Below are positions 55,836 to 61,663 of a stretch of DNA of 64,000 nucleotides, piece after piece; the first letter of the stretch is position 1, and each line of letters opens with the position of its first letter. The notes under the pieces are model-generated. The model did no database searches and was not told where the DNA came from. It worked only from the letters and a program-made list of their open reading frames with translations. Position numbers and translations under genes: made by a program. Source of the stretch: Candidatus Poribacteria bacterium (lineage in GTDB: Bacteria > Poribacteria > WGA-4E > GCA-2687025); NCBI GenBank assembly GCA_028818695.1, contig JAPPNK010000029.1, forward strand, positions 101,450 through 165,449, read 5' to 3'.

Positions 55836-55854
55836 GCAGCCTCCGTTCCACCTC

Positions 55855-55955
55855 AATTGCGCATCGTTCCGCTCCATTCCGCTTTTATGTTACCCGCTTT
55901 GTCCGCATAGATAAAGCGCGAAGGCGCGCCAGAATCCAAATGCGCCGGCATGGCT
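55855..55955. repeat. Left-end repeat of cassette 1
   Basis: About 100 bases nearly identical to 59980-60080, including TTCCGCTCCATTCCGCTTTT, GATAAAGCGCGAAGG and CCAAATGCGCCGGCATGGCT. It lies between purH and the secreted-protein gene and so may hold divergent promoters. Confidence 0.75.
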
Positions 55956-56039
55956 CTTTCAGAGTTTGCGCGCCGGCGAAAGCTATGCTACAATGAAAAC
56001 AAACGAAATTGATGCAACCAAGAAAGGTACGACGAGCAA

Positions 56040-56138
56040 ATGAAACGCCTGAAAAAACTCATGTCCGCTCTTCTCGGACGAACCGACCGTCAGGATTTGG
56101 GCAATGTACCCCCCCCCTCGCGTAAGTCGGCTGCATAA
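56040..56138 (+). CDS. Conserved 32-codon leader ORF
   Basis: It encodes MKRLKKLMSALLGRTDRQDL, then GNVPPPSRKSAA. The copy at 60324 encodes nearly the same peptide with mainly silent or mild changes, which suggests selection on the peptide. AAAGG lies about 11 bases upstream. It overlaps the start of the secreted protein in another frame and crosses the C9 tract. Loss of one C would fuse this ORF to the signal peptide of that protein. Confidence 0.5.
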   Translation: MKRLKKLMSALLGRTDRQDLGNVPPPSRKSAA

Positions 56139-57411
56139 AGCCGCTCTGACCCTGCTTGTTGCGGCAACTGCCGCTTTCTTCGTCTGCGCGCCAGCCAGCG
56201 CCATTCAGATCACTTCGATCTGGCCTTCTTCAGGCTCATACTCAAACCCTGTTCACGTCTTCGAAGATATGGACAACCAGTTCACGATCACAACCGATGC
56301 CGACTTTGAGCGCGTCGAATGGGAACTCATACGCCAGTGGTGGTCCCCCTTCCTAGAGAAGAAAAATGACCCCGGAACCAAAAATGGAACCGACACGCGC
56401 AGCCATTACTCCCCCGCACTCGGTGGAATGGGCGCGCCATATGGAAATCGGCACTACATTAAGGTGACCGCCTTCGATGCAAACGGCGCCAGCGACTCCG
56501 AAGCAATCTATCTCATGGTTTGGAGAAGAAGCAACCTCCCCAATCAAATCCTTAATATGAGCGCCCCGGACAATGTCCTCGCCGGCGAATCGTTCGAAGC
56601 GGAGGTGGAAACGCTCACCCTCTATAGCCGCGTTGAGTGGTACATCAAAAGATCCGGGTGGTTTCTGGCTCCCCAAGCCGAAAGGGTATACGGAAACCCC
56701 GTTGATGTCACCAGAGGAAGGGGTCTTAAAGCCTCCTTCCCACACACCTTTCAGTCAGACAGGACGGATCGGGATAGACTATCGAAAACCGGCAGCAAAT
56801 ACTACATCCTCGCAAGAGCATTTTCCTTGCTTGATCCAGATGCGGAGCCGGTCGAAGACAAGATCGCCATCCACGTCCATGAAGGCAAAAAGAGACGCGC
56901 AATCTCCGGCCACTCGCATATCTATTATGCTCACATTGATCCGGCCACATGGGTTTCCACAGTCGATTGGATACACGAGCTCACATACTACAACGAAATC
57001 GAAGGCGCCGAGGCGCATCTCTACGCATGGGCGAAGTTGTTTGAAGTGTCCGAAGAAAACGACGACGACGAACAAGAGGTGGCTGTGTTTCGTTCAGGCG
57101 ACACAGAAAACGGGGTGGGTCGGAATGATCTTGTTCTGAATCTGGACGTCACATTCGAAGGGCGCGTTTACGAGTTCTTCAACTCCAAACCCCTGAAAAT
57201 CGGCGACGAGCCTTTCAGACTCATCGCAGGCGTGAAATACAGATTTAAAGCGCACCAATTCCTTGGGCATCAAGGCGGTGAGGTGTGGAGGGAGCGGCAA
57301 AATGGAAATTACACTTTCACGTCGCAAACTCGGAGGTTCGATCCAAGGGATGAGTTTGACGATGGGGGCTTGGAGTGGGAGAAAGGGTTGAATGGCGTTG
57401 ACGAAGAATGA
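56104..57411 (+). CDS. Secreted Ig-like repeat protein, poly-C start
   Basis: A 435-residue protein. The frame starts ATG TAC CCC CCC and enters a signal peptide (ALTLLVAATAAFFVCAPASA). Two beta-sandwich-like repeats follow, each with a RVEW strand and a long beta end (FERVEWELIRQW with IKVTAFDANGASDSE; YSRVEWYIKRSGW with YYILARAFSLLD). The C-terminal half is unfamiliar and acidic at its end. The start codon is followed at once by nine C, so strand slippage would turn the gene off or change its start. The relative at 60388 is out of frame. Confidence 0.75.
   Translation: MYPPPRVSRLHKAALTLLVAATAAFFVCAPASAIQITSIWPSSGSYSNPVHVFEDMDNQFTITTDADFERVEWELIRQWWSPFLEKKNDPGTKNGTDTRSHYSPALGGMGAPYGNRHYIKVTAFDANGASDSEAIYLMVWRRSNLPNQILNMSAPDNVLAGESFEAEVETLTLYSRVEWYIKRSGWFLAPQAERVYGNPVDVTRGRGLKASFPHTFQSDRTDRDRLSKTGSKYYILARAFSLLDPDAEPVEDKIAIHVHEGKKRRAISGHSHIYYAHIDPATWVSTVDWIHELTYYNEIEGAEAHLYAWAKLFEVSEENDDDEQEVAVFRSGDTENGVGRNDLVLNLDVTFEGRVYEFFNSKPLKIGDEPFRLIAGVKYRFKAHQFLGHQGGEVWRERQNGNYTFTSQTRRFDPRDEFDDGGLEWEKGLNGVDEE
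56109..56117 (+). repeat. Poly-C tract (C9) at the start codon
   Basis: Nine C directly after ATGTA. With nine C the secreted protein is in frame from ATG 56104. With eight C it would be in frame with the conserved leader ORF from 56040. Confidence 0.8.
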
Positions 57412-57492
57412 TCTGAAATGATCCGCCCCGCGTCCGCGCCAGACCATGCGTCTCGGCGCGGACGCTCCCCTTCATCTTGAAAGGAGCATGAC

Positions 57493-58611
57493 ATGGCCTT
57501 CTCCGCCTTCGCAAAACCCATGGCGTCGTTTGCGGTCGCTGTCTTCTCACTTCTGCTGTGCGCTTCCGCGCCGGCAAGAGACTTTGTCCCGATGGAAGAT
57601 GTAACAAAACTGGAAAAGCCGACCATCTGCATAAGGAGCGGAAACACGCTTAAACTCATCGACTGGGACGGACAAAACGAAAGAGTCTGGATGACAGGAG
57701 AGTTCAACCTTCCGGCAAGATTCAGCCGGGACGGCAAACGCGTCGCCTTCATCGCTAGTACGGAAGATTTCGGTTGGTACACGCTGTTCATCCTGGAGCT
57801 GGAAACCGGTCGGCTGATCAACATGACCGAGCGCCTTAACAACAAAGGATATGAACATATCTACATTCCACACGCAGTGTGGTTTCCAGACGGGAGGCGT
57901 CTTGCATGCGACGCAAATGACAGAGCCAACCCCGCAGGGTTTTCAGAGATATATGTGTTGGATTTCCGCGCCGCAACGCTGGAGCAGCTGACAGAGACGC
58001 CGACTCAGAGAGAATATTGGCCGTCCGTCTCTAGGGACGGCAAGAAGATCGTTTATTTTTCCACTCCTAGCGAAAAGGAACGCGCGGCTCTTGGCATCCT
58101 CCCAGGCGCTTTCGTACCCTACGATCTCTATACGATGAACGCGGACGAATCCAATGTCGTGAATCTGACGTTCAGCGCCGCAGATGAGGGGTACCCTGAA
58201 TGGTCGCCGGACGGCAAGAAGATCGCGTTTAATGCGTTCGACCGCAAAGAGCAGGAAGGAGAGATACGCGGAACAGATCTTTTTATGATGGATCCGGACG
58301 GTTCCAATGTTGAGCGTCTCACATCCCGCAAAGACGGATTGCGGTCATTGGTAAACGATTGGTCGGCGGACAGCAAGTGGATTCTGTTCCATATGGAACT
58401 TGACGACAACCTGCTGAGCGGACTTTACCGCATTCATATAGAGACGCGGGAGATGGTGCGTATCGGCAGATTTGGTGCCGCGACATGGGTTCATGCGGGC
58501 AAGAGCCGCTTCCTCTCCGTTGATCCTGCCGATAAAAAAAAAGCGCAGTGGGGGGCGTTGAAAGAAGCGGACAGCAGTCCGAATAATCCAACTTCGCAAG
58601 ACGGCGAATGA
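57493..58611 (+). CDS. TolB-like periplasmic beta-propeller
   Basis: A 372-residue exported protein with AAAGGAG upstream and a signal peptide (MASFAVAVFSLLLCASAPA). The body has PD40/TolB-type blades: FSRDGKRVAFIAS, WFPDGRRLACDAND, WPSVSRDGKKIVYFS, PEWSPDGKKIAFNAF, WSADSKWILFHM. The C-terminus is polar. It is probably co-transcribed with the Ig-like protein 81 bases upstream. It lacks the N-terminal domain of true TolB and no Pal or Tol genes are nearby, so it is not TolB itself. Confidence 0.82.
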   Translation: MAFSAFAKPMASFAVAVFSLLLCASAPARDFVPMEDVTKLEKPTICIRSGNTLKLIDWDGQNERVWMTGEFNLPARFSRDGKRVAFIASTEDFGWYTLFILELETGRLINMTERLNNKGYEHIYIPHAVWFPDGRRLACDANDRANPAGFSEIYVLDFRAATLEQLTETPTQREYWPSVSRDGKKIVYFSTPSEKERAALGILPGAFVPYDLYTMNADESNVVNLTFSAADEGYPEWSPDGKKIAFNAFDRKEQEGEIRGTDLFMMDPDGSNVERLTSRKDGLRSLVNDWSADSKWILFHMELDDNLLSGLYRIHIETREMVRIGRFGAATWVHAGKSRFLSVDPADKKKAQWGALKEADSSPNNPTSQDGE

Positions 58612-58650
58612 GAAGCGGGGAAGGTTCATGCCTTCGCGCCGGCGGAAATC
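58601..58650. repeat. Right-end repeat of cassette 1
   Basis: About 50 bases with GCGGGGAAGGTT and CGCGCCGGCGGA, matching 63155-63204 at roughly 86 percent by eye. It spans the stop codon of the TolB-like gene and reaches the end of purM. Confidence 0.6.
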
Positions 58651-59682
58651 TCAAACGATGTCGACGCCCTTTTCGCCAGCCTTGATTCCGCCGATGAGGC
58701 GCGGCTGTTCTCCCGCCGCTTCCAGCAGATCCATCGCCGCGGGCAGCTTCTCCGCCTCCACAACGGCCGTCATCCCGACGCCCATATTGAAGACGCGGAA
58801 CATCTCGGCGTCCGCGACGCTGCCCGCGCGCTGTATGCATTCGAAGATGGGCGGAACCTCCCAAGCGTCTCGGCGCAGGACGGCGCGGCATCCCTCTGGC
58901 AGTATTCGCGACAGGTTGTCCATCAGCCCGCCGCCAGTGATATGCGCAAACCCAAGAACGCCCGCCTCCCGATGCAGCGCCAGGCAGGACCGCGCATAGC
59001 TGCGGTGAGAAACGAGCAGCGCCTCGCCGACCGACATCTGCAGCTCGGGCAGCGGATCGTCCAGCGCCATTTCCGCCGCTTCGAGAAGCGCTTTGCGCGC
59101 CAGAGAAAAACCGTTCGTGTGCAGCCCCGCGCTGGGAAAGCCGATGACAACGCAACCGGGGCGTATCGATTCGCCTGTGACCGCCTGCGAGCGCTCCACA
59201 ACGCCGACAATGCAGCCAGCCAGATCGTAATCGCCGTCCGCGTACAGGTCGGGCATCTCTGCCGTCTCGCCGCCGATGAGCGCGCAGCCGACCTCTCGGC
59301 AGCCGCGCGCGACGCCTTCGATGAGACTCTCGACCGTGTCAGGCTTCAGACGCCCCATGCCGATGTAGTCCAAGAAAAAAAGCGGCTCGGCGCCTTGAGC
59401 GGCAATATCGTTGGCGCAATGGGCGACGATGTCGTACCCGACCGAGTCATGCTTGTCCATTGCAACGGCGATCTTCAGCTTCGTTCCGACGCCGTCGATG
59501 CTGGAAACAAGTATCGGCTCTTCATAGGGACCGAGGGCGAACATTCCGCCGAAGGAGCCGAGTTTGCCAAGAGTTTCAGGGCGGCTTGCCGTTTTTGCGA
59601 TCGCCTTGACGCGCTCAAACGCCTTCGCCTTCGCGTCCAGATCAACGCCCGCCGCGCGGTAGGTGAGCGGTTTATTCGGCAT
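58651..59682 (-). CDS. purM: Phosphoribosylformylglycinamidine cyclo-ligase
   Basis: A 343-residue PurM. It begins LTYRAAGVDLDAKAKAFERV and has SSIDGVGTKLKIA, CANDIAAQGAEPLFFLDYIG, GGETAEMPDLY and ITGGGLMDNLSRIL. AGGAG lies 7 bases before ATG 59682. Unlike the other pur genes it stands apart, between the two cassettes. Confidence 0.97.
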   Translation of the reverse strand: MPNKPLTYRAAGVDLDAKAKAFERVKAIAKTASRPETLGKLGSFGGMFALGPYEEPILVSSIDGVGTKLKIAVAMDKHDSVGYDIVAHCANDIAAQGAEPLFFLDYIGMGRLKPDTVESLIEGVARGCREVGCALIGGETAEMPDLYADGDYDLAGCIVGVVERSQAVTGESIRPGCVVIGFPSAGLHTNGFSLARKALLEAAEMALDDPLPELQMSVGEALLVSHRSYARSCLALHREAGVLGFAHITGGGLMDNLSRILPEGCRAVLRRDAWEVPPIFECIQRAGSVADAEMFRVFNMGVGMTAVVEAEKLPAAMDLLEAAGEQPRLIGGIKAGEKGVDIV

Positions 59683-59989
59683 CGCGTTTCTCCTGCGGGG
59701 ACTTTTCATGCGCCATCGCTTCGATTTGTTGATAAAACTTTTCGCGCTCCTCTTGAAGCCGGCGCTTGGAGGCGCGCGCGGAGCGGATCGTCATCGCCAC
59801 GATAAAGACGCCGCCGACGCTGACAGCAACGACCACCGTCATCCCGACATCCGCGCCAAAGAACTTGTTGAGCAAGACGGTTAGAACGACCAGCAACGCC
59901 CCGCCGATCATCGTCGGCCCAAAATAAGGGGAGGAAGTACCCCGACTCGCCAAACGGGAGTAAAGATCGCCTGGACGCAAATTGCGCAT
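59672..59989 (-). CDS. Small membrane protein with coiled-coil end
   Basis: A 105-residue protein. Two hydrophobic helices (MIGGALLVVLTVLLNKFFG, TVVVAVSVGGVFIVAMTI) are followed by a charged coiled coil (ARASKRRLQEEREKFYQQIE). It overlaps the purM start by 11 bases. The first codons lie in the left-end repeat of cassette 2. I do not recognise the family. Confidence 0.7.
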   Translation of the reverse strand: MRNLRPGDLYSRLASRGTSSPYFGPTMIGGALLVVLTVLLNKFFGADVGMTVVVAVSVGGVFIVAMTIRSARASKRRLQEEREKFYQQIEAMAHEKSPQEKRDAE

Positions 59990-60080
59990 CTTTCCGCTCC
60001 ATTCCGCTTTTATGTTACCCGCTTTAGCCGCATAGATAAAGCGCGAAGGTTACGCCGGCATCCAAATGCGCCGGCATGGC
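59980..60080. repeat. Left-end repeat of cassette 2
   Basis: The second copy of the 55855-55955 repeat, same orientation. About 240 bases follow before the leader ORF at 60324; they hold no supported gene. Confidence 0.75.
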
Positions 60081-60323
60081 TTCCTCGCCGTTGATGCGCG
60101 AATCGATCTTTGAAACGTTAAGGAACGGCAAGGAACCGTTTGCGCAGAAATAGTCGTTGCGCGTCGTCGAAAGCCATGCTAGAGTTACGACACGGCATTG
60201 AGACGGTCTTTAGATCAGCGGCGAAAGACGTTGAGACTGGAGAACGATTTATGCTAGAGTGGATGCAGCGGCATGAGCCGTCTGGAAACGAAATTTTCAA
60301 AATGCGAAAGGAACGATCCTGCA

Positions 60324-61663
60324 ATGAAACGACTGAAAAAACTCATGTCCGCGCTTCTCGGACGAACCGACCGTCATGATGTGAGCAATGTACCCCCCCC
60401 ACCCCCGTAAGTTGGCTGACTGACACCGCTCGAGCTCTCCTTCTTGCGGCCGTCGCCGCTCTCCTTGTCAGCGGACACACCAACGCTGTCGAATCGTTTG
60501 AAATCACTGTGAGCTTTTATACGACCGACGTCGTCGAAGACGAATACCACTCAGGATACGCCGAAACCACCGCGCCGTTTTCGCGCGTGGAGTGGTACCT
60601 CAACGGCAATCTCACGAGCACAGACACCGCTCCCCTCGGCGCTCCCTACTAAACAAGCTACTTCGACTCCACATACGAAGGCCTCGGTTCGACAACCGGC
60701 GCCGAAGTGACAGTCATGGCAACCGCCTACGACGCCAACGGAAACAGCGTCTCCGACGAGGAAACCATCACTGTCACATCAAGCGCCGAGAGCGACGATG
60801 AAAATGGCGACGAGTCCGATGGTGAAAATGGCGGCGACTCCAGCGCCAACGCCCCTGCTGCGCAGTCGTATCCGCTCCTGGAGGTCTACGCGGGATGCGG
60901 CAAAATGGAATGGTGGTACGCTCCGCGCGACTCAGTTCCTGATTTTCCGCTCCTTTTAGAGGGGACCGAGCTTGCCGTTAAAAACGCCATGTCTGCATCA
61001 AATCTTGGGGCGGCAATGGTGCTTGGCCGCGGCGCACATCTCATGCGATTAAAAGTGACGCCGTCTTTTGTCGGAGACTTGTTGAAGTACTCCCGAGGAG
61101 AACTTTGGGAAGGGGTTGCTATAATGAGAATTGACAAGGATAGACCCGGCGGCAATGTTCATACATTTTTTGGGGATTTAGAAGGTGTCCCAGACATGTG
61201 TTTACCGTCAAGTCCTGCCGAGATCAACGAATCTTTGCCTCATCCTTTGGATGAAAAAGGCACTGGTGTGGAAGTGTACATCAAAGTTGCTCAAAAAACC
61301 GGCTGGCAGGCGACTTTAGGAGCGCTCACAGCGGCGTTCGGCTTAGGGTCAACGAAGGGCCTGGATGATCTGGAAGTACGGTACAGCCCATCTGTACAGA
61401 TGGAATCTGTTCCACTGGAGGGCGAGGGATCAATGAAAGGATCTGGTGTTGTTCATATTGGAAATTGCCCTGCGCCTCTCCTCCCCGGTACAACACACGG
61501 CAAGGCGAGCGCATACTGGGTGAAAGCGCCTACAGAAGCCAAGGTGGAGCCGCCTGCTTGGGCTAAACATGTCAGCCCCGACGGCGATGGAGGCAGCAAC
61601 GAGGATTGCAAGCAAGGCGTCGGCACGGCGCAGGCACAGGATGAAACTACGGAGGAACAATGA
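60324..61663 (+). pseudogene. Secreted Ig-like protein, shifted in a C tract and with a stop codon
   Basis: This is a relative of 56040-57411. The leader ORF (60324, MKRLKKLMSALLGRTDRHDV) and ATG TAC (60388) are conserved. From ATG 60388 the frame stops at TGA 60418. Removing one C from the tract at 60393-60406 restores MYPPTPVSWLTDTARALLLA, a signal peptide, and a FSRVEWYLNG repeat. That frame then meets TAA at 60650-60652, probably a former CAA. After it the frame is open for about 336 codons to TGA 61661-61663, with ATAYDANGNSVSDEE and an unfamiliar C-terminal domain. The piece from 60707 could still be translated. Its end overlaps the next gene by ATGA. Confidence 0.78.
60393..60406 (+). 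repeat. Interrupted poly-C tract (C8-A-C5)
   Basis: It lies at the same place as the C9 tract at 56109. The distance from ATG to the following GTAAG is one base longer than in the intact copy, which puts the signal peptide out of frame. Confidence 0.8.

Follow-up and report, generated by a model that had tools for sequence, protein, structure and literature searches.

A run of nine cytosines (C9) separates a short leader reading frame from the signal-peptide frame of a predicted secreted protein, and its best explanation is probably translational phase variation of secreted proteins by slippage at the C tract. A single tract alone is weak evidence; the genome holds a whole class of such tracts. 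The earlier note had proposed the C9 as a candidate phase-variable switch, and the proposal gained support from two unrelated gene families with a tract before the signal peptide, tract lengths of 8-13 (one about 19) and open reading frames (ORFs) that are intact both in and out of frame. Surface genes whose 5' coding region carries a poly-G/C tract of at least nine are textbook cases of phase variation, and nalP and pilC come closest in design. The kind of switch is thus known, and what is unusual here is the lineage, the number of loci and the shared 5' segment.

The C9 tract and the frames on either side of it

The features of the locus and of its decayed paralogue are listed below in coordinates of the window, the whole 64 kb stretch of DNA that was analysed. 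Leaders of two types, A and B, occur in the gene family concerned (family 1), and both leaders in the window are of type A.

55984-55994, + strand: extended -10-like TATGCTACAAT 5' of the leader, a weak candidate promoter read by eye
56020-56027, + strand: Shine-Dalgarno-like AAGAAAGG of the leader; other copies have a conserved AGAAAGGA or GAAAGG ahead of their leader start
56040-56138, + strand: leader ORF, translation MKRLKKLMSALLGRTDRQDLGNVPPPSRKSAA and stop; at C9 out of frame with the signal peptide
56092-56095, + strand: Shine-Dalgarno-like AGGA, 8 nt 5' of the internal ATG 56104; in both intact type-A copies, absent from the 60388 pseudogene
56104-57411, + strand: ORF of the predicted secreted protein, 435 aa; predicted signal peptide and a body without Pfam match
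about 56104-56202, + strand: predicted signal peptide MYPPPRVSRLHKAALTLLVAATAAFFVCAPASA, read by inspection
56109-56117, + strand: C9 tract, seen in the sequence, with homologous tracts in paralogues; proposed slipped-strand switch
60324-60410, + strand: type-A leader of the decayed paralogue; TAA ends the leader after the interrupted tract
60393-60406, + strand: interrupted tract C8-A-C5 of the decayed paralogue
60413-61663, + strand: decayed paralogue, body read in the signal-peptide frame; interrupted by TAA at 60650-60652

Inside the leader, ATG 56104-56106 is followed by TA, by the C9 at 56109-56117 and then by TCGCGTAAGTCGG. Read from this ATG, the sequence opens as ATG-TAC-CCC-CCC-CCT-CGC and continues through the signal peptide into the 435-aa protein, with the ORF running to 57411, which confirms that the tract directly after the start codon opens the signal-peptide frame. 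Because that frame is +1 relative to the leader frame 56040-56138, a C8 tract would indeed fuse the leader from 56040 to the signal peptide, as had also been claimed. The C9 lies in the 5' coding region, where one C more or less shifts the frame between start and product.

The window has just two C or G runs of at least 7, the C9 at 56109 and the C8 at 60393, and these occupy equivalent positions in two paralogues. By first-order simulation about 0.25 runs of at least 9 would be expected per window, and the C9 at 56109-56117 is more than chance. Its length is that from which PhasomeIt counts poly-G/C tracts as phase-variable (at least 9; PMC5953494).

Motifs similar to the -10-like element (TATGCTATAGT and TATGCTAGAGT) were found 5' of the other copies, and a promoter consensus scan gave none at the threshold set. 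An Rfam scan of 55850-60700 found nothing. A small GTCCG-loop-CGGAC hairpin is visible in the type-A leader, a leader known from three copies. Pfam searches of the family-1 bodies gave no usable match, and a single-sequence AlphaFold model of the 435-aa protein (no alignment) had a pLDDT of 32 and gave nothing usable apart from one helix at the signal peptide, residues 9-28.

Two families of tract-bearing genes

The genome (3.57 Mb, 35 contigs, 91% complete) was analysed by pattern and homology searches, from which all genome-wide counts derive. Its PurH shares 62-63% identity with that of four Candidatus Poribacteria MAGs and at most 55% with the remaining hits, most of them from Chloroflexi, and we therefore regard the genome as Poribacteria-related. 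BLASTN of 55930-56240 against the same genome located the segment of leader, poly-C and signal peptide at about a dozen further places, and in most copies the homology begins exactly at the C tract. The signal-peptide DNA is 80-92% identical among family-1 copies; the two full-length paralogues closest to the 435-aa protein are 36-39% identical to it over the body. The type-A leader is found, near-identical, in three copies (56040, 60324 and contig C35), and the remaining copies have a type-B leader, (A/G)TG CGT CAT TTG AAT RAA ATC ..., with AGAAAGGA-like ribosome sites.

A second family of five loci (family 2) shows the same poly-C layout with a leader (MM...) and a signal peptide (NFRxNxxxSALTxLL) of its own. 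The tracts of both families are given below, named by contig and not by tract length; an assembled metagenome gives consensus lengths, which may err by one.

Family 1, C13a (56109-56117): 9
Family 1, C35: 9
Family 1, C7: 8
Family 1, C3b: 9
Family 1, C3a: 10
Family 1, C8: 10
Family 1, C15: 10
Family 1, C26a: 11
Family 1, C23: 12
Family 1, C32: 13
Family 1, C24: about 19, at the contig end
Family 2, C2:32835: 9, in frame
Family 2, C10:38103: 10, out of frame
Family 2, C13:31475: 9, in frame
Family 2, C24:82186: 11, out of frame
Family 2, C29:62273: 11, in frame

Paralogues of one genome therefore carry tracts of 8, 9, 10, 11, 12, 13 and about 19 at the same point, with C9 in both intact type-A copies (56109, which is C13a, and C35). 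In family 1, leader and signal peptide share one frame only in C23 and C7. Four copies are out of frame with their leader and yet open after the tract, for 423 codons in C32, 487 in C26a and 506 in each of C3a and C3b; an internal ATG in the signal-peptide frame is present in C3b and absent from C32, C26a and C3a. The broken copies are 60388, C24 (early TAA) and C7, in which the tract is in frame and a frameshift follows after about 60 codons. The out-of-frame copies of family 2 are open for 499-500 codons. Proteins of three of the five family-2 loci have the zinc-protease motif HExxH, and two of these three gave weak Pfam matches to reprolysin/matrixin, suggesting that family 2 includes metzincin-like proteases.

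Contigs C8 and C15 end inside the gene at a motif, TINVWTKSETVN, that is common to several paralogues. The family-1 bodies are modular and repeat-rich, and possibly recombining. Contigs C4, C22, C11 and C24 terminate in C runs of 19-51, some with junk sequence past the run; the end of C24 is a family-1 copy, and C22 and C11, read outward, stop shortly after a Shine-Dalgarno sequence, an ATG and about 20 leader codons that lead into poly-G. These contig-end runs are either tracts of great length or a poly-G artefact that sequencing produced at real tracts.

Tract statistics and selection on the downstream frames

About 20 runs of C9 or longer occur in the genome, against six exact C8 runs. Under simple run-length decay, six C8 runs would be accompanied by two to three longer ones, and the number observed has a P of about 1e-12. 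At least 15 of the roughly 20 long runs have C on the coding strand and lie between a start codon and a signal peptide. The probability of this placement is about 1e-20 when the 15 tracts are counted as independent (about 3000 genes assumed) and about 0.004 when independent families are counted. The phase of the signal peptide relative to the leader start, over 15 copies of both families, was 0 in five, +1 in nine and +2 in one.

The downstream ORF is intact in in-frame and out-of-frame copies alike (420-506 codons when out of frame). Between C3a and C3b, both out of frame, there are 192 substitutions and not one stop, against an expectation of 5.2 stops (P = 0.004); the only indels of this pair are of 15, 9 and 6. 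The dN/dS ratios (about 0.64 for C3a/C3b and 0.36 for C35/C8) indicate weak purifying selection on both pairs, and the proteins were therefore probably made in the past. Intact out-of-frame ORFs, with C3a/C3b free of stops, are the trace that slipped-strand phase variation would leave.

The decayed paralogue at 60388

The paralogue at 60388 had been described as carrying the tract in a different length and out of frame. The tract does differ, but it is interrupted (C8-A-C5) and the copy is a pseudogene, with the TAA at 60650, not an alternative phase. We regard it as decayed because the tract is interrupted, both frames close soon after it, the AGGA before the internal ATG has been lost (CAG to CAT) and the body contains a TAA. 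An interrupted tract is as expected of a locus that no longer has its switch. Near-identical intergenic sequence (GCGCATC.TTCCGCTCCATTCCGCTTTTATGTTACCCGCTTT.. CCGCATAGATAAAGCGCGAAGG) lies 5' of both type-A loci of the window, at 55862-55960 and 59976-60080, so the duplication took in upstream DNA; this repeat adjoins purH and a 105-aa ORF.

Proposed switch and competing explanations

In the proposed mechanism, this would be a contingency locus with the C9 as its hypermutable part. Transcription would begin upstream of 56040 and ribosomes would initiate at the leader ATG 56040, as its Shine-Dalgarno sequence and the other copies suggest; by homology, this start would be used as in the type-B and family-2 genes. 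The leader would supply the start codon and the n-region, with the poly-C between it and the signal peptide, and slipped-strand mispairing would add or remove C residues. Since the main start of the other copies is a leader start with a Shine-Dalgarno sequence, ATG 56104 is probably a secondary start, so the assembled C9 would be OFF or low and C8 (or C11) fully ON. At C8 or C11 the leader would continue into the signal peptide, giving a high level of the secreted protein. At C9 the leader frame closes at 56138, which would leave the signal-peptide frame to the internal ATG alone, with its weak AGGA; at C10 neither start would work and the gene would be OFF. In most type-B and family-2 copies the leader start is the only well-placed one, so tract length would decide access to the signal peptide. 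The same switch may act on about ten family-1 sister genes and on family 2, and probably on a DNA methyltransferase, and cells of one clone would then show different secreted sets. The tract, its position, the differing lengths in paralogues, the effects on frame and the intact out-of-frame ORFs are seen in the sequence; slippage and its rate, the start used, secretion and the biological role are inferred.

It is unlikely that ATG 56104 is the sole real start, with the leader an incidental or coupling upstream ORF and the C9 merely encoding Pro-Pro near the N-terminus of a constitutive protein. The AGGA 8 nt upstream and the frame open at C9, both shared by the two intact type-A copies, are consistent with such a start, which could make the protein constitutive at C9. 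Most type-B and family-2 copies, however, carry the tract without such an ATG in the signal-peptide frame, and a run of nine C is itself likely to be unstable, which would leave the frame phase-variable even from this start. We give a slightly smaller chance to steady, low-rate slippage by ribosomes (+1 frameshifting on CCC-CCN) or RNA polymerase, under which out-of-frame copies would still yield some protein, tract length would matter little and there would be no heritable switch. Poly-C is a plausible slippery sequence, and the excess of phase +1 fits such slippage a little, as do the intact ORFs 3' of out-of-frame tracts. Yet all three phases occur, and five of the 15 copies need no slippage to be in frame; a programmed frameshift or transcriptional slippage site would keep one phase and one length across copies, whereas lengths here are 8 to 13 or more and the phases 0, +1 and +2 are distributed 5/9/1.

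The chance is slim that the tracts mark a decaying multigene family in which changes of length are common frameshifts that inactivate genes as these turn into pseudogenes. Such decay would account for the three clearly broken copies (60388, C24 and C7), but not for the at least four out-of-frame family-1 copies that keep 420-506 codons open, the C3a/C3b pair with no stop in 192 changes or the recurrence of the tract placement in the unrelated family 2. Errors of assembly or base calling as the source of the homopolymer lengths are highly improbable: reads do fail at long C/G runs, where contigs C24, C11, C4 and C22 end with junk, but the tracts of 8-13 are internal to their contigs, have clean flanks and recur at the same place in many paralogues, and an error of length could alter ON/OFF calls but not the existence of the tracts. 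Phase variation itself faces further counterpoints. The two intact type-A copies have the same length, C9, and the other genomes searched do not carry the segment, so that its evolutionary record is limited to this species. The phases are uneven, with +1 in nine of 15 copies, and the genome encodes MutS (two MutS_V matches), which damps mononucleotide slippage in some bacteria; with MutS present, a lack of mismatch repair was rejected as the cause of the tracts.

Comparison with known systems

Most known cases of G/C-homopolymer phase variation come from bacteria that are cultured and host-associated, among them Neisseria and Haemophilus. A full-text literature search returned no paper treating phase variation in Poribacteria (one chance co-mention). 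NalP is a secreted protease, and family 2 likewise encodes secreted protease-like proteins. The tracts of pilC, G(9-20), and nalP, C(9-13), are given as phase-variable (PMC5953494), and as in Neisseria pilC1/pilC2 and nalP, the 5' coding region contains a G/C homopolymer, which here is C8-C13 (one about 19) and precedes the signal-peptide core. Unlike pilC and nalP, about a dozen genes that are dispersed and differ in their bodies have one 5' segment in common here, and their switching is a prediction; the likeness is one of design, with no sequence relation expected.

Haemophilus licA has alpha, beta and gamma start codons just upstream of its repeat (PMC2992063). The lic1 arrangement resembles that of ATG 56040 and ATG 56104, which read different frames across the tract, so that full, low and off states are predicted; licA, however, has a CAAT tetranucleotide repeat and a product that adds phosphorylcholine to lipooligosaccharide, whereas here the repeat is poly-C and the predicted products are secreted proteins. 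In Listeria inlA, a short homopolymer likewise lies near the 5' end of the gene, and slippage truncates the surface protein after a few residues (PMC2831843). That study concerned poly-A/T, in contrast to the poly-C of 8-13 across two gene families described here.

A candidate methyltransferase and the extent of the system

A DNA methylase on contig C18 (103277-105070; Pfam N6_N4_Mtase, E 8e-43) has a G13 run in its DFFGGGG motif region, in frame. In its homologue from a related genus (G002:C19, last 170 bases), which shares 60% identity, the corresponding run is G10 and out of frame. The contig C18 gene is a candidate phase-variable methyltransferase. We suggest, tentatively and at somewhat below even chances, that this uncultured Poribacteria-related bacterium has a large phasome, in which two dispersed 5' modules precede divergent secreted bodies, including metzincin-like proteases, and are joined by a poly-G DNA methyltransferase; its population would then be a mosaic of secreted-protein and methylation states. 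If so, an uncultured lineage gains a set of switches that can be read from existing metagenomic reads, and selection on the surface by hosts, phages or grazers is suggested. A further caution is that such tracts break assemblies and cause secreted genes to resemble pseudogenes.

The segment is apparently restricted to this genus or species. A leader search in 58 relatives found the leader in this genome only, a protein family profile search of 82 other genomes of the class gave only partial matches to the bodies, and exact-pattern scans for the signal-peptide DNA in genome and viral contig collections gave no match. Poly-C tracts of same-family relatives, among those read, were rejected as the same system, being unrelated to secreted-gene starts, as were those of a large sister family, which lie mostly in an intergenic repeat element. 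In three sister-family genomes (G018, G019 and G034), runs of C9-C17 occur in a recurring intergenic element, TTTTAACTATAAGTTAATA-Cn-GATTAACATTCGTTAATTT, whose tract is flanked by two TTAA-rich, near-inverted arms.
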